Under the pieces are notes generated by a model that was not told where the DNA came from, made no database searches, and saw only the letters and a program-made list of their open reading frames with translations. A stretch of DNA of 17,031 nt from Nitrospira sp. (lineage in GTDB: Bacteria > Nitrospirota > Nitrospiria > Nitrospirales > Nitrospiraceae). The stretch spans positions 1 through 17,031 of the forward strand of contig JACOEF010000523.1 in the NCBI GenBank assembly GCA_024998705.1. Direction: 5' to 3'. Of this stretch, positions 216 through 17,031 are shown one piece after another (position 1 is the stretch's first letter; every line of letters starts with the position of its first letter). The position numbers and the translations under genes were made by a program.

Positions 216-238
216 AGAAGCCCTCCCGGGGGAGGTAT

Positions 239-320
239 TACCGGATGCAGAAGGCCGTCAGGGGGCAAGTGGGGAGACGGTGACAAGTCTCAATATAAGA
301 CACCATATATGCATCCGGTA
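239..320. repeat. Exact 11-bp inverted repeat with 60-bp spacer
   Basis: TACCGGATGCA at 239-249 is exactly complementary to TGCATCCGGTA at 310-320. The left arm lies immediately upstream of the ribosome-binding site of the leftward small gene, so protein binding there could control that gene. The repeat could be a regulator or recombination site; nothing in the sequence decides between these. Confidence 0.5.
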
Positions 321-328
321 TACGAAAT

Positions 329-614
329 GCGTACGCGCCGGTCCTGCCGCACCCTGCTCCCATTGCGTACGCCGCTGTCAGCTGGCACGATCGTGATAGG
401 CATCCGTCGAGGGAGTCTTGGAAGCGGTCGGGCAAGGCCTTAGGACAACACGCACCAAGGCCCTGTCCAGACGCACTCACCGGCCATCCGTCTGACAGGT
501 GTACGACATTGTCTGTGTTAGGGAGGCCTGACTCCCCCACATCGTCATGGATGTCGGGCTGATCCAGTGAACTCGTGGTGAACCCAAGGCGTTTCCGTTT
601 GGGTGTGCGTACGC
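329..614. repeat. Three copies of palindromic octamer GCGTACGC
   Basis: GCGTACGC occurs at 329-336, 365-372 and 607-614, each preceded by T. The octamer is its own reverse complement. Three copies in under 300 bp, all inside the spacer, is more than expected by chance and suggests a repeated protein-binding site. Confidence 0.5.
490..508. promoter_or_regulatory. Imperfect dyad, GTCTGACA...GTACGACA
   Basis: The element reads GTC-TG-ACA-GG-TGT-AC-GAC, with complementary outer GTC/GAC and inner ACA/TGT half-sites. It is related to the stronger palindrome at 637-660, which carries the same half-sites with two fewer central bases. The two may be copies of one operator. Confidence 0.35.
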
Positions 615-636
615 ATGACAGCGGAATGTCTTACCT

Positions 637-660
637 ATTTGTCTGACATGTATGACAAAT
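637..660. promoter_or_regulatory. 24-bp palindrome upstream of the ParM-like gene
   Basis: Outer arms ATTTGTC (637-643) and GACAAAT (654-660) are exactly complementary and flank a central self-complementary ACATGT. Only the TG and AT dinucleotides between arms and core break the symmetry. It lies about 100 bp upstream of the ParM-like start codon, a sensible place for an autoregulatory operator or part of a centromere. Binding by the small partner protein is inferred. Confidence 0.5.
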
Positions 661-750
661 CGATTTGGTGGTGTGCGAGCCCGTTCGAGGTCCACGAAGC
701 CAGTAATACATCCCTAGCTGAGTGGGACCAATCTGAACCGCATGACGAAC

Positions 751-755
751 GGAGG
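751..755 (+). promoter_or_regulatory. Ribosome-binding site GGAGG deciding the ParM-like start
   Basis: GGAGG lies six bases before ATG 762-764. This favours 762 over the in-frame upstream GTG at 603, whose extra 53 residues have no family similarity and overlap the 637-660 palindrome. Confidence 0.8.
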
Positions 756-761
756 CTGTGT

Positions 762-1835
762 ATGAGCAAGGCGACTGTTGAACAACCGAAGGCGTCTCGT
801 GGACGGCAACGCCCCGCGTCCTCGGCTCCCTGGGTCGCGATCGACGTCGGGTATGGGTACACGAAGATCCTGACTCAAGAGGGCCAGGCGCATGTGTTCC
901 CGTCTCTGGTGGCGCCGGCGGAGATCTCCAATATCGACTTGAGCTTGTCCGATCCGCAGGAGACCGTGAAACTGGAGGGCGCGGAGTATATTGTGGGCCA
1001 GGCGGCAGTGTCCCGAGGGTTTCGCTTTAGCGAGGAATATGACGGCTGGTGGATGACGACGCGCTACAAAGCGCTGCTGCACTATGCCGGCGCCAACTTC
1101 GTTCTGCCGGGCTCACGCATCGTGACAGGCATTCCTCTGCATATCTTCGGCTCTCAGCGGGCCCAACAGCAAATCAGCGACGTCTTCCGGAAAGCGCTCA
1201 AAGCGCCTGCCGTGGCCGTCCTGCCTCAGGGATTCGGCGCGTTGTGCCTCGCGATCAGCACCAACTCCGCGCTCGCGCAAGGTCGAGTGGCCTTGGTCGA
1301 TATCGGCAGCCGCACTACGGAACTCATTTGTTTCTCCGATGGACAGTACCTGAATCACGAATCGGCGGGAGTCGTGTTAGGGGTTGGACAGGTGTATACG
1401 CAAGTCGCTCAAAAGCTTTCTTCTCAGCATCAGCGACAGATCGATGCCTACGAGGTGGATTGGGCGTTGCGCGAGGACAAGCCGATCAAGATTAAAGGGG
1501 GCGTGGTCGAGCGGCAAGCCTTAGATACGCTGGTGCAACATTACGTGCGACCGTTGGCCACCAGGCTCCACACCGAGATGACGCGGCTATGGAAAGAAGG
1601 CGCGCCAGGCGTCGATCACTTGCTGTACTGTGGTGGCGGATCAGCCCTCCTCGCTCCCTATCTCGGCCACTTCCGAGATGACTACACGATTCTCCCAGAG
1701 AGTCAGTTCACCAATGCGGCCGGCTACCTGGAATACATCCGCCTCACCAGCACAGATCAGACACGGCCGCAGGATCAGGAGGCTGATGATATTCCACAGG
1801 GTAACGCGTCCGCACAGAAGGCGCCGCATGCCTAG
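762..1835 (+). CDS. parM: ParM/StbA-family actin-like ATPase (DNA segregation)
   Basis: This 357-residue protein has the three nucleotide-binding signatures of the actin fold. Phosphate-1 loop: AIDVGYGYTKIL at residues 26-37 (D28, G30, K35). Phosphate-2 loop: VDIGSRTTEL at 179-188. Adenosine-contact turn: YCGGGSALL at 289-297. Known ParM-like proteins polymerise into dynamic filaments in the cytoplasm and, with a small adaptor bound to centromere DNA, push DNA copies apart. Length fits the family. The N-terminal 22 residues and the last 30 or so (Gln/Asp-rich) are probably disordered. It is followed by an overlapping small gene and preceded by palindromes, as in a par operon. Unlike the R1 prototype it belongs to the broad ALP/StbA type; a phage or plasmid actin-like protein of other function cannot be excluded. 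Confidence 0.85.
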   Translation: MSKATVEQPKASRGRQRPASSAPWVAIDVGYGYTKILTQEGQAHVFPSLVAPAEISNIDLSLSDPQETVKLEGAEYIVGQAAVSRGFRFSEEYDGWWMTTRYKALLHYAGANFVLPGSRIVTGIPLHIFGSQRAQQQISDVFRKALKAPAVAVLPQGFGALCLAISTNSALAQGRVALVDIGSRTTELICFSDGQYLNHESAGVVLGVGQVYTQVAQKLSSQHQRQIDAYEVDWALREDKPIKIKGGVVERQALDTLVQHYVRPLATRLHTEMTRLWKEGAPGVDHLLYCGGGSALLAPYLGHFRDDYTILPESQFTNAAGYLEYIRLTSTDQTRPQDQEADDIPQGNASAQKAPHA

Positions 1836-2118
1836 GGTCACAGTCTATTTCTCAGAGAGGTCGGCGGCGGATATGCGGCTGTTTCGATGGCTCGTTCGTC
1901 TTCCCCCGTATCAACGTGGTCGCAACTTCAAGCGGTTGGCGTTGGCTCGCCTCATCAATGGGGCGGGCCGTTCGCGGTCGAAACGTGTAGGAGAGCCAGC
2001 TCAGACAGAACCGAAGGCCAAGATTCGTGACGCACACATCCCTTCGACCTCCACATTTTTGCCGGTGAGCCTCGCGGAAACTCAGGCTGCGTTCTTGCGG
2101 GCGATCAAAAAACCGTAA
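1828..2118 (+). CDS. Small basic protein, candidate ParR/StbB-like adaptor
   Basis: The 96-residue frame starts at ATG 1828, overlapping the 3' end of the ParM-like gene by eight bases. AGAAGG at 1816-1821 sits six bases upstream, so the start is well placed and translation is probably coupled. The protein begins MPRVTVYFSERSAADMRLFR. It has an N-terminal beta-strand-like start followed by helices, an Arg/Lys-rich centre (RGRNFKRLALARL, SRSKR) and a C-terminal amphipathic stretch (LAETQAAFLRAIKKP). Known ParR proteins are small DNA-binding adaptors with a ribbon-helix-helix N-terminus and a C-terminus that caps ParM filaments, and this arrangement fits. I see no unambiguous ribbon-helix-helix signature, so the assignment rests on size, charge and operon position. 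The upstream in-frame extension from 1630 lies inside the ParM-like gene and is not used. Confidence 0.65.
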   Translation: MPRVTVYFSERSAADMRLFRWLVRLPPYQRGRNFKRLALARLINGAGRSRSKRVGEPAQTEPKAKIRDAHIPSTSTFLPVSLAETQAAFLRAIKKP

Positions 2119-2305
2119 CGTTGCCGCCCGTTGAGGCCGATCCTTGATTCCAGGGTTGTAAATCTAAGGGAATAGTTTCCAGCTACAATCACGTCAATTT
2201 GATGATTCTGCTTGCGAGTTGGACAAGACTAGACCAGGACCCTCGCCTTACTCACAGGTCAGGAATATAGACAACAGTCTTTGAAAGAGGTGGCTCCGGT
2301 TGGTT

Positions 2306-2314
2306 GGACAGTGT
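2306..2314. repeat. Candidate IS terminal inverted repeat, orfB side
   Basis: GGACAGTGT here matches the complement of 3531-3539 at eight of nine positions. It lies about 35 bases beyond the end of orfB, the usual location of an IS3 terminal repeat. Confidence 0.5.
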
Positions 2315-2349
2315 CTGCCCGTTCATAAGTGGCGCCTGACCATTGATAC

Positions 2350-3172
2350 CTACGCGGCCATGGGCCGTGCAGGCTGGTGTTCCCAGTACACGCGGGGCGT
2401 GCGGCCGTCAAGCGCGCGATGCGGCCTGAGTTGATTGTAGAAGGTCAGGTAGCGTCCCACCCCCTGCTGAGCGTCGGCGACGGTTTCGTAGGCATACAGA
2501 TAGACCTCATCATATTTGGGGCTCCGCCACAACCGTTCGACGAAGACGTTGTCGCGCCACCGTCCCATCCATACTGATCTGAATCCCGTGGTCGTTCAGG
2601 AGTCCGGTGAATTCCTGGCTCGTGAGCTGGCAGCCTTGGTCCGTGTTGAAGATCTCCGGTGCACCATACCGGCTGATCGCCTCTTGCACGGCGGCGAGAC
2701 AAAAGCCCGTCGTCAACGTATTGGACAGCCGACAGGCCAACACCCGACGACTGGCCCAGTCCAGAATGGCACACAGATACACGAAGCCCCGCCGCATTGG
2801 TATGTACGTAATATCAGCTGCCCAGACGTGGTTAGGCCGCGTGATCGTCAGCTGACGCAGCAGGTACGGGTAGATCCGATGGATGGGATGGCGTTGACTG
2901 GTGCGCGGCTTTCGATAGATCGCCATGATGCCCATCCGCCGCATTAGCGTTGCGACCTGTCGCCGTCCCACCCCATGGCCCTCTTGCCGTAAGAGAGCCC
3001 GCAGCATGCGGGCGCCAGCGAACGGATACTGCAGATCCGGTGCATCGATCCGACGCATGAGCGCCAGTGCCGTGTCGGAGACGGGCGTCGGCTGGTAGTA
3101 CACCGTCGACCGAGCCAGCCTCAGCAGCCGGCATTGTCGCGCTACCAATAATGTGTGAGTCCGGTCGATCAT
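2350..3172 (-). pseudogene. IS3-family transposase orfB (DDE integrase), frameshifted
   Basis: Reading starts at ATG 3172, which overlaps the orfA stop. The N-terminal frame carries the HTH_21-like region and the rve integrase core with WAADITYI (first Asp) and FNTDQGCQ (second Asp). At about 2564-2568, right after the conserved ISMDG, the frame shifts. The original frame reads nonsense to a stop at 2510. The next frame carries WRDNVFVERLWRSPKYDEVY, with the catalytic Glu, and the C-terminal FYNQLRPHRALDGRTP ending at 2350. The total length (823 bp) is one base more than a multiple of three, consistent with a five-base deletion or a one-base insertion. As it stands the transposase lacks its third catalytic residue and should be inactive. 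An alternative upstream start at 3220 is the frame used in the family's orfA-orfB frameshift fusion. Confidence 0.9.
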
Positions 3173-3468
3173 GGCTTTGCGCTCAGCAAGCCCGCCTTGG
3201 TGAGCGCGCCTTCTAAACAATCATGCTCCAAGATCAGCTGGCCGATCTTCGCGTGCAGGGGCTTGAGATCTGGGGCCTCCGTTGGTGGTTTCGGCCCGCC
3301 AAACACATCGGCCGCTCGGGCCAGTAGTTGTTGCTTCTAATCCGTAATCTGAGTGGGATGCACCTGGAACTGCTCGGCCAACTCGGCCACCGTCTTGTCC
3401 CCTTTGACCGCGGCCAACGCCACCTCGGCCTTAAAGGTCGCTCCGTGATTCCGTCTCGTCCGCTTCAT
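3169..3468 (-). pseudogene. IS3-family orfA (helix-turn-helix), amber-interrupted
   Basis: It starts at ATG 3468 with GGGAG seven bases upstream. The first 43 residues, beginning [20 protein letters not shown], form the HTH_Tnp_1 domain typical of IS3 orfA and end [13 protein letters not shown] at 3337-3339 follows. Reading on in the same frame gives KQQLLARAADVFGGPK and then KIGQLILEHDCLEGALTKAG, exactly the usual orfA second half with its heptad-like Leu zipper, stopping at TGA 3169-3171. The family normally has Trp after QIT(D/Q), so the TAG is most simply a TGG-to-TAG nonsense change. The restored orfA is 99 codons, normal length. Confidence 0.9.
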
Positions 3469-3530
3469 GGCCTGGCTCCCTTGGTTTACCACCCCGCCGT
3501 GGCTTGAGTGAAGCCAGGCTACCACTTAGC

Positions 3531-3539
3531 ACGCTGTCC
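3531..3539. repeat. Candidate IS terminal inverted repeat, orfA side
   Basis: ACGCTGTCC here is the partner of 2306-2314 with one mismatch. It lies about 60 bases upstream of the orfA start codon. The next base outside is G3540; no flanking direct repeat is evident. Confidence 0.5.
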
Positions 3540-3556
3540 GAATTTCCGGAGCCCCT

Positions 3557-3584
3557 CTCATCGTTCGATGGAACGCTAGATGAG
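3557..3584. terminator. Hairpin downstream of the fascin-like gene
   Basis: CTCAT-CGTTC (3557-3566) pairs with GAACG (3571-3575) and ATGAG (3580-3584) around a GATG loop, with a four-base CTAG bulge on one side. It lies 12 bases beyond the stop codon at 3596 and could end leftward transcription. It lacks a T-tract on the minus strand, so it is not a classical intrinsic terminator. Confidence 0.3.
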
Positions 3585-3595
3585 TGTCAGGTAAC

Positions 3596-5479
3596 TCACG
3601 GGTCGCCGACCGTCGTTTGGTCCACTTGCATAATCATGAAACCTTCTTTCCCATCATCGTCTCGGCTGACCGCGCTCGTGATCGATATGAATCCTCTAAT
3701 CCTGTTTGTCACAGGATCGCGGCAGATCTCTTGAATGCGGATCCCTAGTTTCTCAGGGTATCGAACACGTTCTCTCACTGTCAGTGCGGTGATCTTTCTT
3801 AAAGGAACACCGACCTTGTTCGTCACGGTGTAGGTGATGGCATGGTCTCTTCCAGGACCGCTATCGTCCGTGTGCGGGGACATGTTCTGAGAGGGAAAGT
3901 GTGCAAGCGGCAGCTTAGGGTCGCGTTCTACAATGGTATAAACTGGCAACTGGCCATCCGGCAGATCGAGGTCAGATTCAAAGGCAATGCGGAACTGCCC
4001 GACCATTGGAGGCGCCGCCCAGGGGCGCCACCAATCGGTATACTCTGGATTCCTTTGCCAAACACCATCGCCATCGGCATCACTGTTTACCTTTGAAAAA
4101 TGCCCCCATTTACTAAAGCGCTCCGAGTCATCCTGGATTTGCATGAGCATATAACGCTTTTTCGAGGGAGAGAGATCCTCACGCCACCAGTACATTTCAG
4201 CTGGATGGATTTCCGATTTGTTCCCATGATTTTCTTCGCGGATGAAGGGGCCGTATGTGCAGAGTCTTTTGCCGTTGAACGATGATTCCAAGCTTTCGGA
4301 GGAAAGGGTAGTGCCGAAAGGCCCCGGTTTTTTCACACTCACGATCTTAAACCAGGGGTTATTCCACATCTCCTCTGTAGGTGTTACTTCGGTGGCAATT
4401 GCGTAACGGCGAAACGTATCATTAACCTGCCTACCGAGAAGGCGGGGATCCTTATCGGGTTCCGATAGGCACCCCTCCCCCTCCTCGCTGCGACTAGGAT
4501 CACACGTGCACCTCTTGCCGCTACGATTAGGGTCACACAGAAGCCAATCCTTCAGAGCGTGGTCCAAAGTGGCACAGCACCATGCATCGGTGATAGCCCA
4601 GGTGTAGTGATCGTCTGGTATGAGGTCAATATTGATGTCTTTCTCGTGATGGTCATCCCTTCCCACGGCCGGATGCACGGTAGCCTCGTCTACTACACCA
4701 CAGACTGTGCGCTTTTCCCATGAGAGGAGATACCAGTTTTGACCGCGCACCCCCCTCCAGAAGTCTCCCGAAAGAGGATTGCTCGAAAGCTCAGACCTTT
4801 TCAATGCAGCGGGGGTCAGGCCCTGTTTGCCGACTTGATGACCCACCGGGTCCAAGGCGGCGACATCATGGGAATATAACCTCGATTCCTGCCAACCCTT
4901 CTCGTACCAGTCAAGTTGGTTGCTGCAGATGGGACAATTGGTCACGTCGATAGGTGGTCCCTGGAACCGGAACGTCTCCCAGGCGTCCGCCACAGACCGA
5001 CTGGCATTGACAGCGGCTCCTCCTCCCGATTCGGCTACGACATACTGACCATTATGGGCTTGAAGCGTGAAGGGGTCGTTGTAGCCGATGGTCTGTGAGA
5101 AGATACTACCGCCCACTTCCCAAATCGTGAAGGTCTCCCAGTCGCTCGGGATCGTCCGATCTGCCTTAACCTCCCGACCTCCGCCTCCTTCCGCGACTAG
5201 ATAAGTTCCTCGTTCCGTCCGGAACTGCACCTTGTCACCGCTTCGGAGCGTGCCGCCGTTCAGATCGATCAAAGTGAAGGTAGTCCCAACGCCGACAATC
5301 GATGCTGTGGCATTGACGGCACCGCCGCCACCGCCGACCGCCACCACGTACTGGCCGTTTACGGTCTGAAGGGTGACGGCACGAGGTCCATTTTGAGCCT
5401 GAGCACTATCAAAGATCGACAGGTATAGGCCCGCGAGGATCATGAACTGCGCACTACGTCTTAGGGTTGCGGTCAGCAT
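3596..5479 (-). CDS. Secreted protein with fascin-like beta-trefoil repeats and novel C-terminus
   Basis: The 627-residue protein starts at ATG 5479, supported by GGGAGGT five bases upstream; the TTG at 5497 is a poor alternative. Residues 1-29 form a Sec signal peptide (LRR, then a hydrophobic core, then SAQAQ). Residues 35-172 hold three beta-trefoil-type repeats: NGQYVVAVGGGGGAVNA (41-57), RGTYLVAEGGGGREVKA (90-106) and NGQYVVAESGGGAAVNA (143-159). These resemble fascin/actin-crosslinking domains, which bind protein or sugar ligands. The rest (about 180-627) is unrecognised. It has Cys pairs (CPIC at 182-185, and a Cys-rich stretch at 301-337), an HGNKSEIHPAEMYWW motif (418-432) and DADGDG (467-472), a possible calcium loop. 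It lies 148 bp downstream of the astacin-type gene on the same strand, so the two may share a secretion-related role. No enzymatic function can be assigned. Confidence 0.8.
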   Translation of the reverse strand: MLTATLRRSAQFMILAGLYLSIFDSAQAQNGPRAVTLQTVNGQYVVAVGGGGGAVNATASIVGVGTTFTLIDLNGGTLRSGDKVQFRTERGTYLVAEGGGGREVKADRTIPSDWETFTIWEVGGSIFSQTIGYNDPFTLQAHNGQYVVAESGGGAAVNASRSVADAWETFRFQGPPIDVTNCPICSNQLDWYEKGWQESRLYSHDVAALDPVGHQVGKQGLTPAALKRSELSSNPLSGDFWRGVRGQNWYLLSWEKRTVCGVVDEATVHPAVGRDDHHEKDINIDLIPDDHYTWAITDAWCCATLDHALKDWLLCDPNRSGKRCTCDPSRSEEGEGCLSEPDKDPRLLGRQVNDTFRRYAIATEVTPTEEMWNNPWFKIVSVKKPGPFGTTLSSESLESSFNGKRLCTYGPFIREENHGNKSEIHPAEMYWWREDLSPSKKRYMLMQIQDDSERFSKWGHFSKVNSDADGDGVWQRNPEYTDWWRPWAAPPMVGQFRIAFESDLDLPDGQLPVYTIVERDPKLPLAHFPSQNMSPHTDDSGPGRDHAITYTVTNKVGVPLRKITALTVRERVRYPEKLGIRIQEICRDPVTNRIRGFISITSAVSRDDDGKEGFMIMQVDQTTVGDP

Positions 5480-5483
5480 CTTT

Positions 5484-5490
5484 ACCTCCC
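5484..5490 (-). promoter_or_regulatory. Ribosome-binding site of the fascin-like gene
   Basis: Minus-strand GGGAGGT lies five bases (counted from GGAGG) before ATG 5479 and settles the start at the signal peptide. Confidence 0.75.
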
Positions 5491-5627
5491 TAGACAATTG
5501 TTGTCCTGATGTGACCTGCCGAATTACGGGTATTCACTACGCTCGAATAAATTCAGCCTCTTGCATCTCCCCGGATCATCAATAGTAGAAAAGCTGAACC
5601 ATCGCCTAGATATGCGCTGAGCGTCTC

Positions 5628-6101
5628 CTATTTTGCATTTGTGTGGCTTGATTCTTCAGGTGCAGAAGGCCTTTCCACGCGTAGCTTAACAAACGGATCG
5701 CTTTCGGTTACCTGGGGTACGAGGAAAGGCGTGGTGCCTGTAGCGCTAGAAGTGATCCCGGAGGGCACACTTGGACGAACTGGACTCGTTGTAATTCCTA
5801 ATTGGGTGCTGGGACCAAGTGGTGAGGGAGGAGCGGGACGAAACTGTACCCGGACGGAACTCACCTTATCCCCCCAGTCTTGTCCACTTGGGCCGTTTCG
5901 GTGTAAGTCTCCCCAATTTTGAGGACCAGCGAAACGCCAACTCTTCCCGCCATAGTTCACATGCTCATACAATGTGATTGTCCAGCCGGCCGGCACGCAG
6001 AGGGATGAGGCCCTGTCGTTGAATGAACTTTGATACGTAGTTACACCGTCACACGTCACGGCCTTGAGTTTCAGATCGGGAACGTCGTTCAGGGCGTCAA
6101 A
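5628..6101 (-). pseudogene. Frameshifted C-terminal part of the astacin-crystallin gene
   Basis: This is the out-of-frame continuation of the gene at 6089-7999. Read from TTT at 6101 it gives FDALNDVPDLKLKAV, then DRASSLCVPAGWTITLY and GPQNWGDLHRNGPSGQDWGD. That completes the third beta/gamma-crystallin-like module begun in the upstream frame (TPVLFEHDNYRGR). It ends with a Pro/Ser/Thr-rich tail of about 65 residues and a TAG at 5628-5630. There is no ribosome-binding site or good start, so it is unlikely to be translated independently. The break can be explained by a single missing or extra base at about 6101-6104. It could be a true mutation, a sequencing error or, less likely, programmed frameshifting. 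Confidence 0.8.
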
Positions 6102-7999
6102 GGCCTGCCTCGGTAATTATCGTGCTCGAAGAGGACCGGGGTGTTCGAACAAGCTGGGGGTGGCTGATTGGCCACCGTCGCTGGCCCCATGACTTCTGCC
6201 GAACTGAACAGATCGCCCCACCTTCGACCACCGGGGCTTTCCCGTTTCAGATCGGGTAGGTTGAACGGACCGTCGACTGTCAACACATCGCCCTTGTAGC
6301 TGGTGTGTTGGTACAGCCTCAGGGTCCAGCCCACGGGGACGCAGACAGACGAGATATTGTCGCCGAAGAACCAGGTGTGCAGCGTGGCAGCATTGTTGGT
6401 GAGCGCTAGGCGGCGTCCAGCGTAGTGGTCATGCTCGACCACGATCGGCGTCGCTGCGCACTCAGGCGGAGCCGGATTGGCCTGCACGCCCTCTCCCCGC
6501 ACGGAACTCACCCGATCTCCCCAATTCTTGCCGTTCGGTCCAGCCCGATGCAGATCCACATACATCGTGGGACCCGGAATCGATACCGCCTCTCCGCGAT
6601 AGTCGGAGTCGGCATACAAGGTTACCGTCCATCCTATCGGAACGCATAATGAGGAGCCTCTGTCGACGAAGTTTTCGTTGCCAAGATTCGGCTGCGACCA
6701 TTCGAGCGAAACGCTCCGGCCGGCGAAGTTTGTATGTTCGTGGAGCACGGGAACCCGAGCGCAATCCACCCGGGGATAGAGCTGATTGAGGCCGGCAAGA
6801 TCGGCCGGCGAAAGTGTCACGCTAGAGCTGATCGACTGCCCGGGGATGCGACTCCGCAATGTCGGCAGGCCGTTTTTTGAAAGGCTGTCCGTGCGGTAAT
6901 GCATCCTCGACGTCATATCGTAGGGCCCGAGGTCGATGCCATCACTGACATGCCTGTCGAAATTGTGCCTTGCTTCATCTGTGACGTTGTCCCAGAGAAC
7001 TTCCACGTAACGATCACGATCCATGCGCGACTGCTCGTGGAAGATACCGACGGCGTGTGCCATTTCGTGGATTACGCAACTGCTATCCGCATCGGCTATG
7101 AGTCGGATACTTTGTCTGACGCCCTGCCGGCCGACCATAGACTGGCCACAACCCGGAATGCTCTGGTCGCGGACAAAGACGACAAAATCTGGCTCCCCGT
7201 TTCGTGGTACGAAGCGGACATTGGTCTGATTCCAATCCGCAATTGCAGCCTGAATAGCAGTGCGTAACCTATGACCGGTCGGAATCGAATTTGCGTCGAT
7301 TTCGAAGGGCACCACGCCGCCCGGCCAGAGCCACCATGACCCTGCCTTCACGCTCAAGGGTTGCCGGATTCCCCCAAGGCCGCCGACAATCCAAGAGACG
7401 GAGCCCTGACGACCGAGGAGCCAGAGCTGGCTCTCCCGACCCAGATCGATGTCCTCTTGCAAAATGGCATGGCCAGCTCTCGCTTCATAGGTAATTTGGA
7501 TCGGATCGCGGTGCCGAGGCAACAGCACCGTTGCCGTACGTAGGGTCGGCTTTTCTGTGCCACTAGCCTGGACCTTCACCGCTTTATGTAATTGAACCGG
7601 GGAGGGGGCCGCATGGGTTATGTCAGGTGACTGAGTGCCCGAGAGTGAACCGACGGCGGCCAGCACGTGGCCGTTGAGCGGAAAGTGGACCACGTGCATG
7701 ACATCCGGATGCTCACTCAGCGTGTTTATCGCCAGCGGCGCGGTGTTTTCGCGGTTGAATCGGAGTTTAGTTCCCACCCATGGGTCTAGCGCATAACTTC
7801 CAGGGTTAGCAACCACATCTCCGGTGGGTGCGGCAAAACGAGGACCTTGCTCCGGCACAAATGTCAGCGCATCTGCTGACGCCGTGGCGGTGACCTGAGC
7901 GACGTGAAGACCCGAGTCGTTCTGGCTGAAGGGAATGCCGAAGAATACACTCCCACTCGCTGCCAATACGAAAAATGCGACCCAAAACGTTCGGCTCAT
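6089..7999 (-). CDS. Secreted astacin-type metalloprotease with beta/gamma-crystallin modules
   Basis: It encodes 636 residues before the frameshift; the original product was about 790. ATG 7999 has GGAGA seven bases upstream. Residues 1-24 look like a signal peptide and about 40-215 like a propeptide. The catalytic domain (about 220-409) opens with WPGGVVPFEID. It has the zinc motif HEMAHAVGIFHEQSR (H311, E312, H315, H321) and a Met-turn SRMHY (M366), the hallmarks of peptidase family M12A. Two complete crystallin/I36-type modules follow (about 415-502 and 517-606), each with EHxxxxGR, SSxCVPxGWT, LYxxxxYxG, GPxxxxDLxR and WGDxxSS. A third is cut by the frameshift after residue 632. Known astacins are secreted, zymogen-activated endopeptidases, and the crystallin modules may bind calcium or a surface. 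The truncated protein keeps the whole protease, so it may still be active. Confidence 0.88.
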   Translation of the reverse strand: MSRTFWVAFFVLAASGSVFFGIPFSQNDSGLHVAQVTATASADALTFVPEQGPRFAAPTGDVVANPGSYALDPWVGTKLRFNRENTAPLAINTLSEHPDVMHVVHFPLNGHVLAAVGSLSGTQSPDITHAAPSPVQLHKAVKVQASGTEKPTLRTATVLLPRHRDPIQITYEARAGHAILQEDIDLGRESQLWLLGRQGSVSWIVGGLGGIRQPLSVKAGSWWLWPGGVVPFEIDANSIPTGHRLRTAIQAAIADWNQTNVRFVPRNGEPDFVVFVRDQSIPGCGQSMVGRQGVRQSIRLIADADSSCVIHEMAHAVGIFHEQSRMDRDRYVEVLWDNVTDEARHNFDRHVSDGIDLGPYDMTSRMHYRTDSLSKNGLPTLRSRIPGQSISSSVTLSPADLAGLNQLYPRVDCARVPVLHEHTNFAGRSVSLEWSQPNLGNENFVDRGSSLCVPIGWTVTLYADSDYRGEAVSIPGPTMYVDLHRAGPNGKNWGDRVSSVRGEGVQANPAPPECAATPIVVEHDHYAGRRLALTNNAATLHTWFFGDNISSVCVPVGWTLRLYQHTSYKGDVLTVDGPFNLPDLKRESPGGRRWGDLFSSAEVMGPATVANQPPPACSNTPVLFEHDNYRGRPLTP

Positions 8000-8612: not shown

Positions 8613-10760
8613 GTGCTCGATCTAAAGAGAGCGTTCATTACGAAGAAGTTTCTTTCACTGCTTAGCTTCTTCGTGTTTCTGTCTTTTCTATTCGTCCCCA
8701 TAAGTCTTCTCGCCCAACCTACCAATGAAATGTCCCCGTCAATGACTGATGGGGCACACGACTCATCCGGTGAAGTGCTAATGTTAGACGAAATCACGAT
8801 CTCGGCAACGCGTGAGAAGCGAAAAACGTTCGACATCCCGCAGGATGTCACGATCGTTAGCCGCGACGAAATAGCCCGGCGCACGCCTACCATTCTGCCC
8901 GATCTCTTGGAAGGTGCTGAAGGCGTGTTCGTGCAAAGAACCACCCCCGGTCAAGCAAATCCCATCATCCGAGGACTCGTCGGAAGTTCCGTCCTCACGC
9001 TCGTCGATGGCATGCGCCTCAATACGGCATTTTTTCGCCCCTCACCCAATCAATTCGTCGCTCTGGTTGACCCGCAGAACGTCGACAGTATTGAGGTGGT
9101 CCGAGGATCCGGGTCCACACTCTATGGCAGTGATGCGATCGGCGGAGTAATTAATATCCTGACGCCGATCCCAACCTTCGATTCTAAAGACTGGCAGACC
9201 AGAGGGAAGGTAGGGGGGCAATTCAGCAGCGCGGACTTGGGCTATGTGTCTCGTCTCGCCGTCGAGTCTGGAAAGAAAGGCATTGCGTTTAGTACCGGGT
9301 TGACCTATCAGGCGGCGGACGACTTGCGCGGAGGTGGCGATATCGGGATTCAGCGTCCATCCGGATTTAGGTCCTATGCGTTTGATAGCAAAGTGTTTGT
9401 GGAGGGCAATGCGCAAGACCTTCTCTTGAATGTACAGTATCTGCAGCAGCCGAAGACCCCGCGTTACGATGAGCTGAATCCGGGATATGGACAAACCACA
9501 CCCAGCTCCTCCGTCTTCCTCTTCCAACCCAATGATCGACTATTTATTCATGGGCGGTATCGCGTGTTCCAGCCCATGTCGTTTGTGGACCGGGCCGAGT
9601 TTAACGTCGGCCTACAGGAGATTCGTGATGATCGACGCGCGCGAGATTTTGAGAGTCCGATCGAGGTCAGAGAGCGGAATAAAAGCCGCATGATTGGCGC
9701 CACCTTTCAGTTCACCTCCGTCTTATCTGAGTGGCTGACGCTCACGTATGGGGGGGAAGCCTATTTGGACACGATTTCGAGCCGTAGCATGGGAACGGAC
9801 ATCACGAGCGGGCAGACAGTGGCACAGACCAGTCGGTTCCCGGATGGGTCAACGCTGAACAGTTTTGGGGCCTACGACGAAGGGGAGATCAAGGTACATC
9901 CCCGACTCACTGCCGTGGTTGGAGGACGACTCAGTTATTTTGAAATCGATATCCCGAAAGCCGACCGAGACGTGGGCGCCCAATTAAACCCCCTCGCTCC
10001 CACGGGTCACGTCGGTCTTGTGTATCACCTTACCCCCGAAGTCAATCTCGTCACCAATGTGAGCCGAGGTTTCCGAGTCCCCAACGTCTTTGATCTGTCT
10101 ACCTTGGGTTCCCGACCAGGGAACAGATTTGCTATTCCGAATCCCAACCTGAAACCTGAGGAGGCGTGGTCCTTCGATGCCGGGACAAAGGTCCGTTTCA
10201 ATCGCTTTACCGGCGAACTCTTCGGTTTTTACACTCTGATTCCGAACAGGATTGAAGGGGAGTTGACGGGGGGCAGAACCGCGGAAGGAAGGCAGATTAT
10301 TCAAACGGCCAACCTCAATCGTGTCCAGCTCGCAGGAATCGAAGCAGGCGGCCGGATTTATGTGAGTGCTGACCTAGAAGTCTTCGGCAATCTGACCTAC
10401 ACCTATGGCTGGGAAACACTTCCACAAGGTCAGGTTCTCTCGGCCGATCGCATTCCCCCCTTGAATGGCCGAGTAGGCTTGCTCTACCGCTCGGTGCCTA
10501 AAGTGTGGATTGAGCCCTTCTTTCGCTTCTCGTCGCCGCAAGATCGCTTAAGTAATCGTGACTTGACCGATCCACGAATCAACCCCAATGGGACGACCGG
10601 ATGGACCACAGCGAGTCTCCGCCTTGGGTGGATTCTCTCACAATATCTGACGCTTCATGGCACGCTCGAGAATATGTTTGACCAACCCTACCGGGAGCAT
10701 GGATCGGGAATTAATGCGCCGGGCAAAAATGTAGTTGTGGCGTTGGAAGGACGTTTTTAA
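8613..10760 (+). CDS. TonB-dependent outer-membrane receptor
   Basis: It encodes 715 residues from GTG 8613, with TTGGAG five bases upstream; the ATG at 8611 is out of frame and stops at once. A long signal peptide (about 1-35) ends SLLA-Q. A TonB-box-like LDEITISATR (58-67) precedes the plug domain (about 70-185), which has NPIIRGLVGSSVLTLVDGMR and the signature SIEVVRGSGSTLYGSDAIGG. The remainder is a beta-barrel of usual size with a C-terminal LENMFDQPYREHGSG segment and final Phe (LEGRF), the outer-membrane insertion signal. Such receptors import scarce ligands using TonB-ExbBD energy. The plug and the HGSGINAPGKN terminus resemble heme/hemoglobin and cobalamin/colicin-type receptors, but no partner import genes are nearby, so the substrate is open. 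It converges with the high-GC gene pair. Confidence 0.93.
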   Translation: MLDLKRAFITKKFLSLLSFFVFLSFLFVPISLLAQPTNEMSPSMTDGAHDSSGEVLMLDEITISATREKRKTFDIPQDVTIVSRDEIARRTPTILPDLLEGAEGVFVQRTTPGQANPIIRGLVGSSVLTLVDGMRLNTAFFRPSPNQFVALVDPQNVDSIEVVRGSGSTLYGSDAIGGVINILTPIPTFDSKDWQTRGKVGGQFSSADLGYVSRLAVESGKKGIAFSTGLTYQAADDLRGGGDIGIQRPSGFRSYAFDSKVFVEGNAQDLLLNVQYLQQPKTPRYDELNPGYGQTTPSSSVFLFQPNDRLFIHGRYRVFQPMSFVDRAEFNVGLQEIRDDRRARDFESPIEVRERNKSRMIGATFQFTSVLSEWLTLTYGGEAYLDTISSRSMGTDITSGQTVAQTSRFPDGSTLNSFGAYDEGEIKVHPRLTAVVGGRLSYFEIDIPKADRDVGAQLNPLAPTGHVGLVYHLTPEVNLVTNVSRGFRVPNVFDLSTLGSRPGNRFAIPNPNLKPEEAWSFDAGTKVRFNRFTGELFGFYTLIPNRIEGELTGGRTAEGRQIIQTANLNRVQLAGIEAGGRIYVSADLEVFGNLTYTYGWETLPQGQVLSADRIPPLNGRVGLLYRSVPKVWIEPFFRFSSPQDRLSNRDLTDPRINPNGTTGWTTASLRLGWILSQYLTLHGTLENMFDQPYREHGSGINAPGKNVVVALEGRF

Positions 10761-10902: not shown

Positions 10903-13900
10903 TCAGTCCCCTGCCTCGCTCAACAGGCTAGCAAGAGTTGCAATGAACGTCGCACCGTTGGCTCCATCGGGATCCGCCATGTCATCCGTCGCCGGCAGCA
11001 CCGCATTATCCGATGGCCCCGGCCACAGCGGCAATATCCGCCCCAGGCCGTTCTGCGACAGCAAATCACTGATCAGATCAAACGCCGCCGCCGGACGCCC
11101 CAGCCGGATATACTCCGCCACCGGGATCGTCCCCGGCGCCGGAAACGGTACCGCCAGCTTCGCCGCCATCAAATCCCGCCGGTACTCCCGCACCTTCTTC
11201 GAATACCCCTTCTCGAACTGCCGGTCGAACGACACCACATCCGCCGCGCCGTCAAACGTCATCCCGCGTCGCCGGAAATGGCTCGTTCCCACCAGCGCAT
11301 ACACGTCATCCACGATGACCGACGTCGTCCGGATAAACGCAGTCCTCCCCGGGAATCCCACCGGATGGAACACCACCACTCGATCGGGGGCCACCGCCAG
11401 CAGGTCTCCCACCGCTTCCAGCCGAGCCGCATAATGCCTGCGGTTCCATCCCTTGTACTTCGGTGCGAAGTCCGCGATCTTCGGCGTGCAGATGATCACT
11501 CGCAGCGAGGGAAACGCCTGCATCCGCGCCGCCAGCAGTGCCACCAGATCTATCTTCCAAGCCTCCGGCGTGCTGCCCGGTCGCGCCGTTCTCGAAAACG
11601 CCGGCGACTCGATATACACGAGCTCACGCGCCTCCTGGATCGCCCGCCGCAGCGACCACAACGCATCCCGCAAGCCCTTCTTCGAAACGAAGAACTCGCG
11701 CCGCACCTCGTTGATCAGCCGGTCCCCGTTCTGCACATTCCCGTTCGGCGGAGGCACATTCAACCGGTTCGCCACATCGTTCACGATCTGCTGCACCGTC
11801 ACGTTCTCCGCCGGCACGTTCACGTTCAACGCGCTCAACTCCGGCGTCTCGCACACCGCCGCGATCGTCTGTAGAAACGCTCCCGTCCCCGTGTTCGCCG
11901 GCGTATTGTCCACGGGCTCGTTGAAATTGTTGCCGCCCATGAACACCACCCAGCTCGGCGTCGGCGCGCCCGGCAGTGGAATCACCGACTGCACCCGCCG
12001 CGCCGCGTGACGCGCTGCATCCCACGCCAGCGCTCCCGTCACGCGCACTCCCGGCGCGTGCACATCGGGCCCGCCCGGATTCCCCGGATTGCCTCCCGCG
12101 TGCAGCGCCGATCTCGTCTCTCTCGACCAACGACCGCCCGAGATCACTGCATCCCAAAGCAGCGTCCCCGCCGGATTCGGCACCGCCGGACCCGTCGTCC
12201 CCGTCACTATCACCGATTCAAACCGCACCATCGTCGGCAGCCTCGGCCCCTCTCTCGGGCTCCCCTCCGACGCCAGCTTCCTCACCAGATCGATCGGCGT
12301 CGCTGGAGCCCCCGGTGCCGGATTAATGATCCGCGTCATCCCAAACAGCGGCACCGGACAGATCGACTTCACCATATCGGGGAGCGCCTGCACGACACCC
12401 GGATTCGTGAACGAATCCGGTGGAGCCGCCACCGCCGCCTGCGACATCGTCACCGCAATGTTCCCAAACATCCGCCACGTCCCCGTGCGCGGTGCCACAA
12501 CGATGTCCATCACCAGATTCGCCGGATTCGGCATGGCCTGCCCTGGAAAGAGGTTCAATGGATTTCTCAACAAAATCGCCGTCGGATTCGCGCCGTTCAC
12601 GATCCCCGATGCGCCATCCCCGCGCTCGAACGACAGCTCCTCAGTGATCGCCGGGATCTCCACGAACACCCGCGGATAGATCCGGATCGTCGCCCCGTCC
12701 GGCGCAACCCCTCCCGCGATCGTCACCACCACATCCTGTGTACCGCTCAGCGCCGCCTGGATCCCCTGCGCCGGGGAGACGATCGTCGTCGCAAAGCCCG
12801 CATTCGTATTCGGAGCCGGAAACGCCGGCCAATGCGCGTTGGCGCCGCGCTGTGCCGGCACGGACATCGTCCCGTCGATCTCCGGCGAAACGATCAGCAC
12901 CATCGACTGGTTCGGCCTAGCCAGCACAGTCGAACCTTCCCCCAGCACGTCCGGTCCGTCCACCAGGTAATCGATTACCACCTGGTCCCGCACCTTCGGC
13001 ATCAGGCTCTCCGGAATCGCTTCGTCGTCCGGCCCCACGCCCAACACCGTCGCGTTCGTCCGGTTGCCCAGCAGGTGCCACTGCGTATCCACGACACACA
13101 CCCGGAGAAACTGCCGCGGCATCGTCACTCCGCCCGGCAAGGCCGGCGGCGTCAGTGGCGTCCGCGCCAGCGTCCCGTTCGTCCCGAAACCCCAGCGGAG
13201 CCGCCCCTGATCTCCCGCCGCCGCATTGATCCTCTGATTTGCCGGAAGCGTCGTCACTCCGCTCGACGGCACATTCGCTTGCACGACTCCCGCATTGTTT
13301 TCCAGCACCATCGTCGTGCCCGGTAGCGCCGCCTGATATGCGCCGCCGTGCGGACTCACGAAGTGCAGCACCGTCGCCGACGCCAGCATCGTCGAAATCG
13401 ATGTCACTCCGCCCGCGCCGTTCGCCGGACCGCCCGCATTCGCCACAAGCAGCCCCAGAAACTGCGTCAGCAGATCCGACAGCATTGACGCCACGTACAA
13501 AGGATCCACAATCAACCCGCGGTTGTCGTGGAACGAGATGACTCCGTTCAACGCCGGACCGCTCGGATCGAATAGCGCCTCGTCGGCCTCATACCACTGG
13601 GCCGTCCGGAATCCTTCCGCCGCCCGGATCACCATCGCCACCGGAATCGGCCTCACCACCGGATTGCCGCCGTCGAACCTCTGCGACGCCAACCGCTCCA
13701 GCCGCATCGCCGCCTGCGGATGCAGCCGGATCGCCGTTACCGATCCCGTCAGCGGCGCCCCGTCCACGTTGAAGAAATCATGTGTCCGGTTCGAGCCCGT
13801 CAGCTTCAACTCCAGGCGGTCGCTCGAACTGAACGCCTGTGCCGCCGTACTGTCCCAAGCCCTCTGGATCGTGAACATGTCCCCTGCCCGCGCCGTGCAG

Positions 13901-14274
13901 TTCACGACTTCACGCTTTGTCCCGGAACTGTTCGATAACACCAGAATCACCGACCCTGGAGCCTGCGGAGCCGGAAACGCGTTCCCCTGCCCCGCGTTCA
14001 CCGTCACCGTCGTCGCCCCCGCCGTCAAATCCGCGCCCAATGTCGCTCGCGCCGGCGAGTAACAGTACTCGCGAATCCCCTTCCAGGGTGACCGGATCCC
14101 GTTCGTGATGTTCAACGTCAAGGCGTTCGGATCGTAATCGCCCGACTGCACCGCGCCGCTCGACCACCGCGGCCCCAGCGTCACCGCCGTTAGCCCCAGC
14201 GTCTGCAGACCATCGCTCTGCAACTCCTGCTGCGCCGCATTCGGCGTAAAGGTCGTGATTGGGAATGACACCAT
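10903..14274 (-). CDS. Large protein with phage-like module and degenerate phospholipase D domain
   Basis: It encodes 1123 residues from ATG 14274 with no signal peptide or membrane segment. Residues about 80-160 (TAGATTVTVNAGQGNAFP ... FTIQRAWDSTAAQAF) resemble a small beta-module common in phage structural proteins. The middle is Gly/Ala/Pro-rich and unrecognised. The C-terminal region (about 840-1025) has the PLD layout: a helix, then LVYIESPAF, LRVIICTPK, and RTTSVIVDDVYALVGTSHFRRRGM. In the HKD motif HxKx4Dx6GS the His is Arg982 and the Lys is Thr984; Asp989 and Gly996 remain and Ser becomes Thr997. No intact second HKD is visible, so phospholipase activity is doubtful. The gene starts three bases after its upstream neighbour's stop. 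GC is clearly higher than in the left part. A structural or binding role is inferred. Confidence 0.8.
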   Translation of the reverse strand: MVSFPITTFTPNAAQQELQSDGLQTLGLTAVTLGPRWSSGAVQSGDYDPNALTLNITNGIRSPWKGIREYCYSPARATLGADLTAGATTVTVNAGQGNAFPAPQAPGSVILVLSNSSGTKREVVNCTARAGDMFTIQRAWDSTAAQAFSSSDRLELKLTGSNRTHDFFNVDGAPLTGSVTAIRLHPQAAMRLERLASQRFDGGNPVVRPIPVAMVIRAAEGFRTAQWYEADEALFDPSGPALNGVISFHDNRGLIVDPLYVASMLSDLLTQFLGLLVANAGGPANGAGGVTSISTMLASATVLHFVSPHGGAYQAALPGTTMVLENNAGVVQANVPSSGVTTLPANQRINAAAGDQGRLRWGFGTNGTLARTPLTPPALPGGVTMPRQFLRVCVVDTQWHLLGNRTNATVLGVGPDDEAIPESLMPKVRDQVVIDYLVDGPDVLGEGSTVLARPNQSMVLIVSPEIDGTMSVPAQRGANAHWPAFPAPNTNAGFATTIVSPAQGIQAALSGTQDVVVTIAGGVAPDGATIRIYPRVFVEIPAITEELSFERGDGASGIVNGANPTAILLRNPLNLFPGQAMPNPANLVMDIVVAPRTGTWRMFGNIAVTMSQAAVAAPPDSFTNPGVVQALPDMVKSICPVPLFGMTRIINPAPGAPATPIDLVRKLASEGSPREGPRLPTMVRFESVIVTGTTGPAVPNPAGTLLWDAVISGGRWSRETRSALHAGGNPGNPGGPDVHAPGVRVTGALAWDAARHAARRVQSVIPLPGAPTPSWVVFMGGNNFNEPVDNTPANTGTGAFLQTIAAVCETPELSALNVNVPAENVTVQQIVNDVANRLNVPPPNGNVQNGDRLINEVRREFFVSKKGLRDALWSLRRAIQEARELVYIESPAFSRTARPGSTPEAWKIDLVALLAARMQAFPSLRVIICTPKIADFAPKYKGWNRRHYAARLEAVGDLLAVAPDRVVVFHPVGFPGRTAFIRTTSVIVDDVYALVGTSHFRRRGMTFDGAADVVSFDRQFEKGYSKKVREYRRDLMAAKLAVPFPAPGTIPVAEYIRLGRPAAAFDLISDLLSQNGLGRILPLWPGPSDNAVLPATDDMADPDGANGATFIATLASLLSEAGD

Positions 14275-14277
14275 GGG

Positions 14278-17031
14278 CTAGCTCACCTCCTCCATGTGCT
14301 CCACGAATCGCCCATCCGGCGAGGTGATTCGGATCGTTATCCGCGTCGCCGCGACACGACACAGCGCTCCGTAGCTCTTGTTCGCTCCCCCGCCTTGCAG
14401 CCGCCTCACCACCACCGGCTCGCTCCCCGGCGGAAAGCCCGGCCCCGACTGTACCGGAATATCGTCAAGCGCCAACTTGATCACGATCGGCTTCAGCGGC
14501 GCTACAATGATTTCTCCTGGACTCGGCCTCCCCGGCGGCCGCAACGGCGGAAACGGCTGCGCCACCTGCTTCCGGGTCACTGTCAGGCCCAGCATGTACG
14601 AACCCGCCGGGGGTGCGGTCACCGGAGCCGAACTCTGCCAGCTCAACACCAGACCCACGTTCGCCACCTGCACCAGCGTCACGTTCTGAATGTCCGGAGC
14701 CGGCAAGACCGGCCCCGCCGGGATCTCCAGAATCCGCTCGGTCATCCTCCCGATCGGATCCGTGATCCGCACCGCGAACTTGATCACGTCGTTCACCGCC
14801 GCGCGCTTAATCAACGCCCGGTACTGCACCGCGTCCGGCGGGGGCGACGAGGTTCTCCACGCGCCACTGCCGACTCCCGGCTGTGCCGTCGGCAGCGCCT
14901 CCAGATTTGTCAGCACCTCGATCAACGGCGGATCCCCGGCAACCCCAACAACGCTCGCATCGACGGCCAGCCGGTGATGTCCTAGCGGCGTTTTTTTCAG
15001 TGGAGCCGTGCTCGTCCACTTCACCAAAACATCCTCCAGAGGACCGCCCGGCCAGTCCAGCGTGAGCGCCGAAAGGTTCGGCGGCGCGTTGGGCGGTACT
15101 ACGATCCACGCTGCGTTGCTCGCAGACGACTTGCCGCGCAACGCTCCTCGCAACGGGTCGTCCTCCGACCAGGCAACCGCCCTGTACCACACTCGCCGCC
15201 ACGAGCCCGACCGCGTGTCCTGCCCGCTCACTTTCGAGATGTGCGACACGCCCGCGCCATCCAGTTCCCGCGTCACTGTCCATCCGCCGCCCGTGTTCGC
15301 CAGAGTCAGCACAGGCGGCCCCATCGTGTTCAACTCCCTTGCCGCGTCATCCACGCGCACACGGTGCAACTCCACCTTCTGCACGCGCGGTCCGCTCCTC
15401 ATGTTCGCCAGCACTGCCGCCCGGAATACGTTCGGGTTCACGTTTTTGTCCAGCACCCGCGCCACCTCCAACGTCGGAACAGTCGGAACCATCACCCGCG
15501 GAGCCGCTACCGCAATCAACTGATCCTCAGGATCCTGGCCCGACGGCCACTTCGCCTCCACCTGCCCCGCACTCACCCCCATCACGATGTATACGTGGAT
15601 CGACGTGCTTCCCTTCGGAAGCGTCACGTCCGCGCTCGTCGCTTGAATCAGTCGCGCATTCCTCCTCGTGAACTCTCGACGCGACGGGTTCGCCTTGAAC
15701 GCATTCTTGATCCGGGTCAGCCTCTGGCTCAGCGTCAGATTCGGCGTCGCCTCCGGCAGGCTGTTCGACTCCAGAATCTTGCTCTCCGTTGACTCATAGA
15801 TGAAATACCCGACGGCGCCCGGATCATTCGACCAGCTGATCCGCGCGTGACACTCCCCCGCCGCATCCGGCAAACTCGCCAAATCTACGATGTCCGGGGG
15901 TATCACCGGGGGCCTCGGATCCGACGCCGTGCAGAGATTCGGCTGCGGAGACCACAGACTCACTCGCTGCGGAGCCAGCCGCTCCACCGCCTGCGCCCAC
16001 AACGCACACCCGATGTGCCCTGTCGCCGCGTAGTTCAGAGAAAATCCCTTGATCATCACACGGTACCGCCGTGTCTCGTTCCCCTGCTGCGGCCCGAACG
16101 CCACCTGCTTGTCGCCGTCCGCGCTCAATGCGATCACCGAATCCTGTGCATTCGGCAGCCCCGGCACATCGCCCGTGAACTCAATCTCGTACGGCACGCC
16201 CGCTCCGCCCGCGAGCGACTTTTGCAAGCCCGCCGCCGGAACATTCGACGCCGGCGGCGCTCCGTGAAACGGCATCGCATACAGATTCGCCACGAACCGG
16301 ACTGTCTTCGGCCCCCGGATCCGCCAGTCCCACAGGAACTCGATCCCCAGCGTCGCGTCGCACACCGCTCCCGACGCCGGAGCCACCGGTTTCAGATCCA
16401 TGTTCACGATCCGCACCAGATCCGGATCCGGCTGCGCCACCACGTGGTCCCGAGACGACCACGGGCTCCACAGTCCGTACAGATTCTGCGTCGCCGCCGC
16501 GCACTTAACCGTCCTCGTCCCTGGATTGTTCGGAATCGAAATCGACCGCGCCACCGCGTGCATCCGCCAGGCCTCAGGATCCAGATCGTTCCTCGACTTG
16601 TTTGATGCGATCGGCACGAACCCGCCGCTCGGCCTTGCCTCCATTAACGCTATCGCTCCGCCCGGCGGAGCCACGCTCGCCCGCGCCGCCGCGAAACTCG
16701 AAACCCTCAACAGATTCATGGACGGCAGTCGGTCCCAGCTGATCCGCACCGCCCCCTGCCACGATCTGTCCGATCCCACTGGCCTCTCGTGCCCCATCAG
16801 CTCAGTGAAGACGTTCGCCGGCGCCGGTGGCGGCAGCGCCGGACCCGGTGACGGGACCAGCGCCGCAAACTCCACCGCCTCCGAATTCCCGTTCAACCCC
16901 TTCTCCCACCGCGCCGTGATCATGTAATCGAAGAACACTCCCGGATTCGACGCCACCCCTACGGGCAGCGTACTCACCGGATACGCCGTTCCGAACCCTA
17001 GCACCAGGCTCACGAACGGATCGCTCCCCAC
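14278..17031 (-). CDS. Giant fibronectin-III-like beta-sandwich protein, 5' end outside window
   Basis: The frame is open at the right edge and encodes 917 visible residues, ending at TAG 14278-14280. The first visible codon (GTG) is an internal Val rather than a proven start. Repeated tracts have the FN3 look: VRISWDRLP (about 95-103), ARISWSNDPGAVGYFIYEST (396-415), VLVKWTSTAPLKKTP and LVLSWQSSAPVTAPPAGSYM (about 795-814). They are separated by Pro-rich linkers, with few Cys and no transmembrane segment. Known FN3-type proteins in bacteria are extracellular enzymes, adhesins, or phage-tail and injection-system fibres. The sequence alone does not choose between these. It sits directly upstream of the PLD-like gene in an apparent operon that continues beyond the window, and shares its high GC and codon use. 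Confidence 0.75.
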   Translation of the reverse strand: MGSDPFVSLVLGFGTAYPVSTLPVGVASNPGVFFDYMITARWEKGLNGNSEAVEFAALVPSPGPALPPPAPANVFTELMGHERPVGSDRSWQGAVRISWDRLPSMNLLRVSSFAAARASVAPPGGAIALMEARPSGGFVPIASNKSRNDLDPEAWRMHAVARSISIPNNPGTRTVKCAAATQNLYGLWSPWSSRDHVVAQPDPDLVRIVNMDLKPVAPASGAVCDATLGIEFLWDWRIRGPKTVRFVANLYAMPFHGAPPASNVPAAGLQKSLAGGAGVPYEIEFTGDVPGLPNAQDSVIALSADGDKQVAFGPQQGNETRRYRVMIKGFSLNYAATGHIGCALWAQAVERLAPQRVSLWSPQPNLCTASDPRPPVIPPDIVDLASLPDAAGECHARISWSNDPGAVGYFIYESTESKILESNSLPEATPNLTLSQRLTRIKNAFKANPSRREFTRRNARLIQATSADVTLPKGSTSIHVYIVMGVSAGQVEAKWPSGQDPEDQLIAVAAPRVMVPTVPTLEVARVLDKNVNPNVFRAAVLANMRSGPRVQKVELHRVRVDDAARELNTMGPPVLTLANTGGGWTVTRELDGAGVSHISKVSGQDTRSGSWRRVWYRAVAWSEDDPLRGALRGKSSASNAAWIVVPPNAPPNLSALTLDWPGGPLEDVLVKWTSTAPLKKTPLGHHRLAVDASVVGVAGDPPLIEVLTNLEALPTAQPGVGSGAWRTSSPPPDAVQYRALIKRAAVNDVIKFAVRITDPIGRMTERILEIPAGPVLPAPDIQNVTLVQVANVGLVLSWQSSAPVTAPPAGSYMLGLTVTRKQVAQPFPPLRPPGRPSPGEIIVAPLKPIVIKLALDDIPVQSGPGFPPGSEPVVVRRLQGGGANKSYGALCRVAATRITIRITSPDGRFVEHMEEVS
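14284..14293 (-). promoter_or_regulatory. Strong ribosome-binding site inside the upstream gene's 3' end
   Basis: Minus-strand GGAGGAGGTG lies within the last codons of the FN3-like gene, 9 bases before ATG 14274. It sits just ahead of the upstream TAG, which suggests coupled translation of the two large proteins. Confidence 0.75.

Follow-up and report, generated by a model that had tools for sequence, protein, structure and literature searches.

The pseudo-PLD gene and its HKD sites

The window analysed here is the whole 17,031 nt of contig JACOEF010000523.1 (C788 in our set) from the Nitrospira sp. assembly GCA_024998705.1, which consists of 4.16 Mb in 1028 contigs. Its minus strand includes a coding sequence for a 1123 amino acid (aa) protein (coordinates 10903 to 14274), here called pseudo-PLD, that has a predicted phospholipase D (PLD) fold and is encoded by the third and last gene of a three-gene cluster. 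The middle gene of the cluster (coordinates 14278 to 17031) is on the same strand, with 917 aa seen of ~1200 and its 5′ part truncated at the edge of the contig. The stop codon of the middle gene (TAG, 14280–14278) is separated by three bases from the ATG of the pseudo-PLD gene at 14274, and a ribosome-binding-like sequence, GGAGGAGGTGAG (14282–14293, also on the minus strand), is located within the end of the middle gene. The open reading frame (ORF), strand, coordinates and motif residues (R982, T983, T984, D989, G996 and T997) were found to be exactly those given in an earlier annotation made from the sequence alone, hereafter the sequence-only reading. All features of pseudo-PLD described below are likewise on the minus strand.

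The two-lobed PLD fold was predicted for residues ~398–1101 (coordinates 10972 to 13083), placing the protein in the PLD superfamily. The sequence-only reading had assigned a PLD domain to the C-terminus (residues 830–1030), and the predicted fold is indeed that of a PLD; however, a domain confined to the last 200 residues was rejected, as the structure comparison covered both lobes. The Gly/Pro-rich centre is ordered rather than a floppy linker. It includes the first PLD lobe and a beta-rich stretch within that lobe (residues ~505–611; coordinates 12442 to 12762), a likely insertion judging from secondary structure, and the mean predicted local distance difference test (pLDDT) score exceeded 80 in 47 of 48 ten-residue blocks from residue 171 to 650, the exception being 541–550.

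The position of the second HKD site (HKD2) was established by comparison with intact PLDs. A Nonomuraea record was matched in a tblastn search of plasmids, and the underlying 553-aa ORF encodes a PLD in which neither site has lost its H-x-K (SHHQKFVIL and YVHAKVCVVDD). BLASTP paired FIRTTSVIVDDVYALVG in pseudo-PLD with YVHAKVCVVDDVWATIG in the Nonomuraea PLD, setting R982 on His, T984 on Lys and D989 on Asp (58.9 bits, expect value (E) 5e-13 for one comparison). HMMER gave the same register, weakly, with Arabidopsis PLDalpha1 (6kz8; whole-sequence E 0.0061, HKD2 piece alone 9.6 bits). The hhalign values were 97.0% against 13 intact PLDs, 12 from host-phylum genomes and one from Massilia, and 98.8% when the Nonomuraea PLD was added to make 14, each for one comparison. 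The sequence R-T-T-x4-D-x6-G-T thus aligned covers residues 982–997, with the degenerate HKD2 itself, R-T-T-x4-D, at residues 982–989 (coordinates 11308 to 11331).

The HKD1 equivalent, R-F-E-S-V-I-V-T-G (residues 684–692; coordinates 12199 to 12225), contains no H-x-K. The run against 13 PLDs set F685, S687 and G692 on the His, Lys and Asp of HKD1 (by eye) and the run against 14 left the motif unaligned, and the exact register here is uncertain by one residue. In both runs PDVHAPGVRVTGALAWD, which follows the HKD1 site, matched the WHDV...G segment located after HKD1 in PLDs. The profile check proposed in the sequence-only reading gave nothing for the window protein, which matched neither Pfam PLDc_2 (PF13091) nor PLDc (PF00614) at the curated cut-off; among its relatives, PLDc_2 was matched by 5 of 27 and PLDc by 2 of 27 at E≤1 (best E 6.1e-4).

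Relatives of pseudo-PLD comprised 235 proteins at E≤0.001, with full-length ones at 48–59% identity among them, a likeness far above chance, and the best 120 were entered in a main alignment of 218 rows (200 proteins from the database and 18 from the loci, with fragments included and near-duplicates possible). A residue is present at positions 982 and 984 in 216 rows, and in none of these is the first His or the second Lys. At position 982 there is R in 202 rows, E in nine, P in two and K, S and N in one each, and position 984 is T in 196, S in 9, Q in 5, A in 4 and N in 2. D989 is retained in 213/216 rows and G996 in 215/215. In a branch of Bacteroidota/Nitrospira type, position 982 is mostly Glu, also Asn or Ser, in place of Arg. 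The HKD1 region (residues 676–700) has no H-x-K in any of 169 rows. The only HxK-x4-D string in the 218 sequences is in P0166, outside its HKD2 site, which reads RSTTIIVDD, and in two further members (P0073 and L037) an H-x-K is close to HKD2 yet out of register (by eye).

A lone mutation was therefore rejected, as no sampled member has the catalytic His or Lys, and a second intact HKD was rejected on the evidence of P0166 and the HKD1 region. The proposal in the sequence-only reading that this is a pseudoenzyme, with catalytic His and Lys gone and Asp and Gly kept, is supported, and the Arg/Thr replacement is conserved among homologues. The HxKx4D motif of active PLDs is absent at both sites, and loss of HKD chemistry in the pseudo-PLD family is well supported.

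The rebuilt site and the N-terminal module

The strongest conservation in the whole protein surrounds the former HKD2 site and involves H-P-x-G-F-P-G-R, R-T-T-x3-V-D-D and R-R-R-G-x-T-F-D-G. The first, a family-specific motif directly before HKD2 (residues 970–977; coordinates 11344 to 11367), is conserved at 96.7–99.5% over its fixed positions (H970 211/215, P971 208/215, G973 214/215, F974 212/215, P975 209/214, G976 211/214 and R977 212/214), and no such motif was seen before HKD2 in any of the 14 intact PLDs (by eye). In the motif after HKD2 (residues 1001–1009; coordinates 11248 to 11274), R1001 is kept in 213/216 rows, R1002 in 216/216, R1003 in 215/215 and D1008 in 215/215. H999 is His in 202/216 rows and Thr, Ser or Ala in 14/216.

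Invariant columns were counted across 28 aligned members of nearly full length; this alignment was preferred to one of 70 rows because the latter is skewed by a fragment (row L058) and has 12 invariant columns near the C-terminus partly for that reason. Of 124 invariant columns, 23 are in residues 965–1032, the densest 68-residue stretch of pseudo-PLD. The best stretch elsewhere, residues 709–780 after the HKD1 site, has 14, and 101 of the 124 are outside 965–1032. Judged by this conservation, the former HKD2 site is under selection for something, either binding or new chemistry.

The phage-structural N-terminal module described in the sequence-only reading proved to be real but optional. Residues ~76–172 (coordinates 13759 to 14049) matched tail-fibre families in PHROG (E 1.3e-16) as well as the tail fibre 8jov, for which E was 6.3e-6 alone and 2.7e-9 with a profile, and tail fibres in BFVD superposed on the module at ~2 Å over ~90 residues. 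Of the 121 rows whose N-terminus is intact, 94 have the domain and 27 lack it. However, a search of 50,697 phage records gave nothing related to the whole protein at E≤1e-5, and none of 11 candidate stretches in viral contigs was confirmed. The tail-fibre likeness is limited to residues ~76–172 and the gene was not found in a phage genome; the phage link of pseudo-PLD is one optional domain. Five host-phylum genomes (G129, G399, G337, G183 and G046) matched only model positions ~51–161, the tail-fibre-like domain, suggesting that this domain occurs in other proteins of the phylum.

The three-gene cluster and its distribution

The genetic context of pseudo-PLD was surveyed in 56 loci, 54 of which had >3 kb and 51 >5 kb of sequence before the match (2 and 5 left out, respectively). 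The middle gene is directly upstream of pseudo-PLD on the same strand in 50/54 loci, and a giant gene is upstream of the middle gene in 48/51. The exceptions are L047, which has no middle gene, and L053, L055 and L059, which have neither partner, the L055 contig being 3.7 kb. Only the C-terminal lobe was seen in L047, L053 and L059; in L047 it comes after the giant gene, and in L053 and L059 E-T-T replaces R-T-T. In the genome of the window (G000), the giant gene (locus L073) was found on a separate contig (C692, coordinates 17 to 5533), and as it runs to near the end of that contig the cluster was probably split by assembly. In upstream stretches of 12 to 20 kb, taken from 11 genomes and a plasmid record, no further gene was common to more than four; a thirteenth stretch (L070), which covered the wrong side of the gene, does not count here. 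Within 10 kb, the only other neighbours to recur were ABC ATPases, in 7 loci, and short-chain dehydrogenases, in 4, with six members scanned against Pfam. These are common families that vary in place and strand, and no secretion or immunity genes were among the recurrent neighbours. A known defence system was rejected, as PADLOC models gave 0 matches at E≤1 with three proteins of the cluster. As the same dead version closes the three-gene cluster in many unrelated bacteria, it appears to have been retained as a non-enzymatic component and not to stem from an isolated mutation. The pseudo-PLD family is real and conserved, has no Pfam name of its own and is found in a conserved three-gene cluster.

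The giant protein is 2318–2545 aa in the upstream survey. In a segment of the L009 protein, DUF6603 (PF20248) was matched with 30.1 bits, above the Pfam cut-off of 27; the score was 26.1 bits with the longer L009 protein, and the L052 protein had no match at E≤0.5. Overall, 10 of 38 giant segments matched DUF6603 at E≤0.01. Pfam assigns this family no function, and DUF6603/PF20248 was named in no paper found in the literature searched. For a 716-aa segment of the giant, the predicted structure is a long beta-meander (pLDDT 80.4, predicted template modelling (pTM) score 0.55). Hydropathy alternates along its strands (3.23 versus 1.44 in shuffles, with 0/2000 shuffles as high), as determined for the 22 predicted strands of ≥8 residues that begin at position 257 or later. 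The giant protein weakly resembles porin barrels and the belt of apolipoprotein B. An outer-membrane porin was disfavoured, as the cluster is found in Paenibacillus, Streptomyces and Glycomyces and no signal peptide was evident (by eye, with no signal-peptide program run).

A tree of 42 pseudo-PLD proteins spans nine phyla (Pseudomonadota, Acidobacteriota, Bacteroidota, Actinomycetota, Nitrospirota, Planctomycetota, Cyanobacteriota, Gemmatimonadota and Bacillota), and two more phyla are represented by partial loci, L047 from a Dehalococcoidia bacterium (Chloroflexota) and L055 from a member of the Verrucomicrobiota. Many of the records are metagenome-assembled genomes under names given by the submitters. 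The window protein belongs to a clade of 14 rows, starred in the tree, in which phyla are mixed, apart from the Nitrospira proteins L042 and L043, a placement that fits horizontal transfer although the tree alone is no proof of it. In the host phylum, 11 of 395 genomes had any pseudo-PLD match and four (G000, G023, G338 and G360) had one over most of the model. G338, a genome of the host's family, has its match at coordinates identical to those in G007, the genome of Nitrospira locus L043, which suggests that the host and Nitrospira share a family. Two loci of the same genus, L099 (G260, ~3591–3809) and L100 (G155, ~3407–3631), have only ~60–75 aa resembling residues ~1057–1122, at the C-terminal end of pseudo-PLD, with the partners absent from the 8 kb covered, and are possible relics of a lost cluster.

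Possible roles of pseudo-PLD and other genes in the window

PLD-fold pseudoenzymes are best known from vertebrates (FAM83), and PldA of Pseudomonas aeruginosa is a catalytically active effector with gene neighbours that differ from those of pseudo-PLD. PldA (7v55) is among the known systems closest to pseudo-PLD. With the two-HKD PLDs (human PLD1 and PLD2, Arabidopsis PLDalpha1 and bacterial enzymes), pseudo-PLD shares the two-lobed fold, and the HKD2 strand, Asp and Gly are in register. However, it is without the HKD2 His and Lys and the HKD1 H-x-K, and has an added beta-rich stretch in lobe 1, the HPxGFPGR motif and an N-terminal part of ~390 residues. Vaccinia F13 (9fhk) is viral, ~370 aa, and without such partner genes. 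The nearest described pseudo-PLDs are the FAM83 proteins, which resemble pseudo-PLD in having a PLD-like domain that lacks PLD activity and sits in a protein with a different task; they are stated to be confined to vertebrates and have a DUF1669 domain (PMC6008594). DUF1669 was not among the Pfam matches of pseudo-PLD at E≤1, and, among the papers listed in the literature searches, no title concerned a bacterial pseudo-PLD family.

A structural or sensing role, as suggested by the sequence-only reading, is plausible. We favour, with moderate confidence, a catalytically dead but complete PLD kept as a non-catalytic subunit that offers a ligand-binding cleft within a complex of three proteins. 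The PLD scaffold without His and Lys would be retained as this subunit, and the products of the three genes would form one complex. The rebuilt cleft, with its several invariant arginines, may bind a phosphorylated ligand without cutting it, a phospholipid head group being the first choice, and binding could anchor or position the complex, for which the DUF6603-type partner would provide a very large amphipathic beta-sheet surface. Several observations weigh against this. The case for lipid binding is drawn from ancestry and the arginines only, and R982 is not universal, being replaced by E, N, S, P or K in 14/216 rows. The conserved H970, H999, D989, D990 and E889 would equally suit new chemistry. 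The overall shape predicted for the giant segment is unreliable because of the pTM of 0.55, and amphipathic strands are equally typical of membrane barrels.

The conserved histidines and acidic residues raise the prospect of a re-invented enzyme rather than a pseudoenzyme, in which the PLD scaffold has a new active site made of, for example, H970 and H999, D989/D990 and the invariant arginines. This appears unlikely, even though H970, R977, H999, R1002 and D1008 have a site-like conservation stronger than that of R982 (counts above), the HPxGFPGR motif is absent from the 14 intact PLDs and residues 965–1032 are the most conserved stretch. H999 is replaced in 14 rows and H970 by Gln or Ser (2/215 each), Gly/Pro/Arg-rich motifs are typical of binding loops too, and we know of no precedent for a site of the H970/H999 type in the PLD superfamily. 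There is a similarly small chance that the PLD fold is a pure scaffold, an architectural block joining the other two proteins with a cleft that binds nothing; the constant linkage of the three genes, the large added beta-rich regions and the 101 invariant residues outside 965–1032 would all fit, but the density of invariant residues is by far the highest near HKD2 (23 in 68 residues versus 14 in the best other stretch). A phage-derived protein or secreted effector, such as a tail fibre or a PldA-like protein, is highly improbable. The tail-fibre domain is missing from 27 of 121 rows, the phage records gave no match, no candidate in viral contigs was confirmed, no secretion or immunity genes are recurrent neighbours and both HKD sites are without H-x-K.

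A speculative, rather doubtful possibility is that the cluster, which Gram-positive bacteria also have, encodes an undescribed, horizontally spread machine of ~4700 residues, in which the giant amphipathic beta-sheet and the rebuilt PLD would make an intracellular particle that coats or carries lipid. The HPxGFPGR site would then hold a phospholipid or another phosphodiester, or act on it by a new chemistry. The findings define a bacterial pseudo-PLD family, found in nine phyla by the tree and in two more by partial loci, that is tied to two very large partners. DUF6603 is thereby placed in a conserved genetic setting, with a proposed complex that can be tested, and the site kept in almost every member indicates residues for mutation.

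Beyond the cluster, the window includes a TonB-dependent receptor gene (coordinates 8613 to 10760, plus strand) that is convergent with the pseudo-PLD gene; the nearest models were heme/hemoglobin receptors, below cut-offs. An astacin-type metalloprotease with beta/gamma-crystallin and inhibitor-I36 matches is encoded at 6089 to 7999 (minus strand), followed by a shorter ORF (5628 to 6059) of similar-looking sequence. A 633-aa ORF (3596 to 5497, minus strand) matched DUF7910 in two stretches. An actin-like protein (603 to 1835, plus strand) matched Pfam ALP_N and MreB-like_C, the nearest NCBIfam models, PRTRC_D and ParM, being below cut-offs. A transposase-type ORF (2510 to 3220, minus strand), which we take to be IS3-like, matched the Pfam integrase core (rve) and HTH_21.
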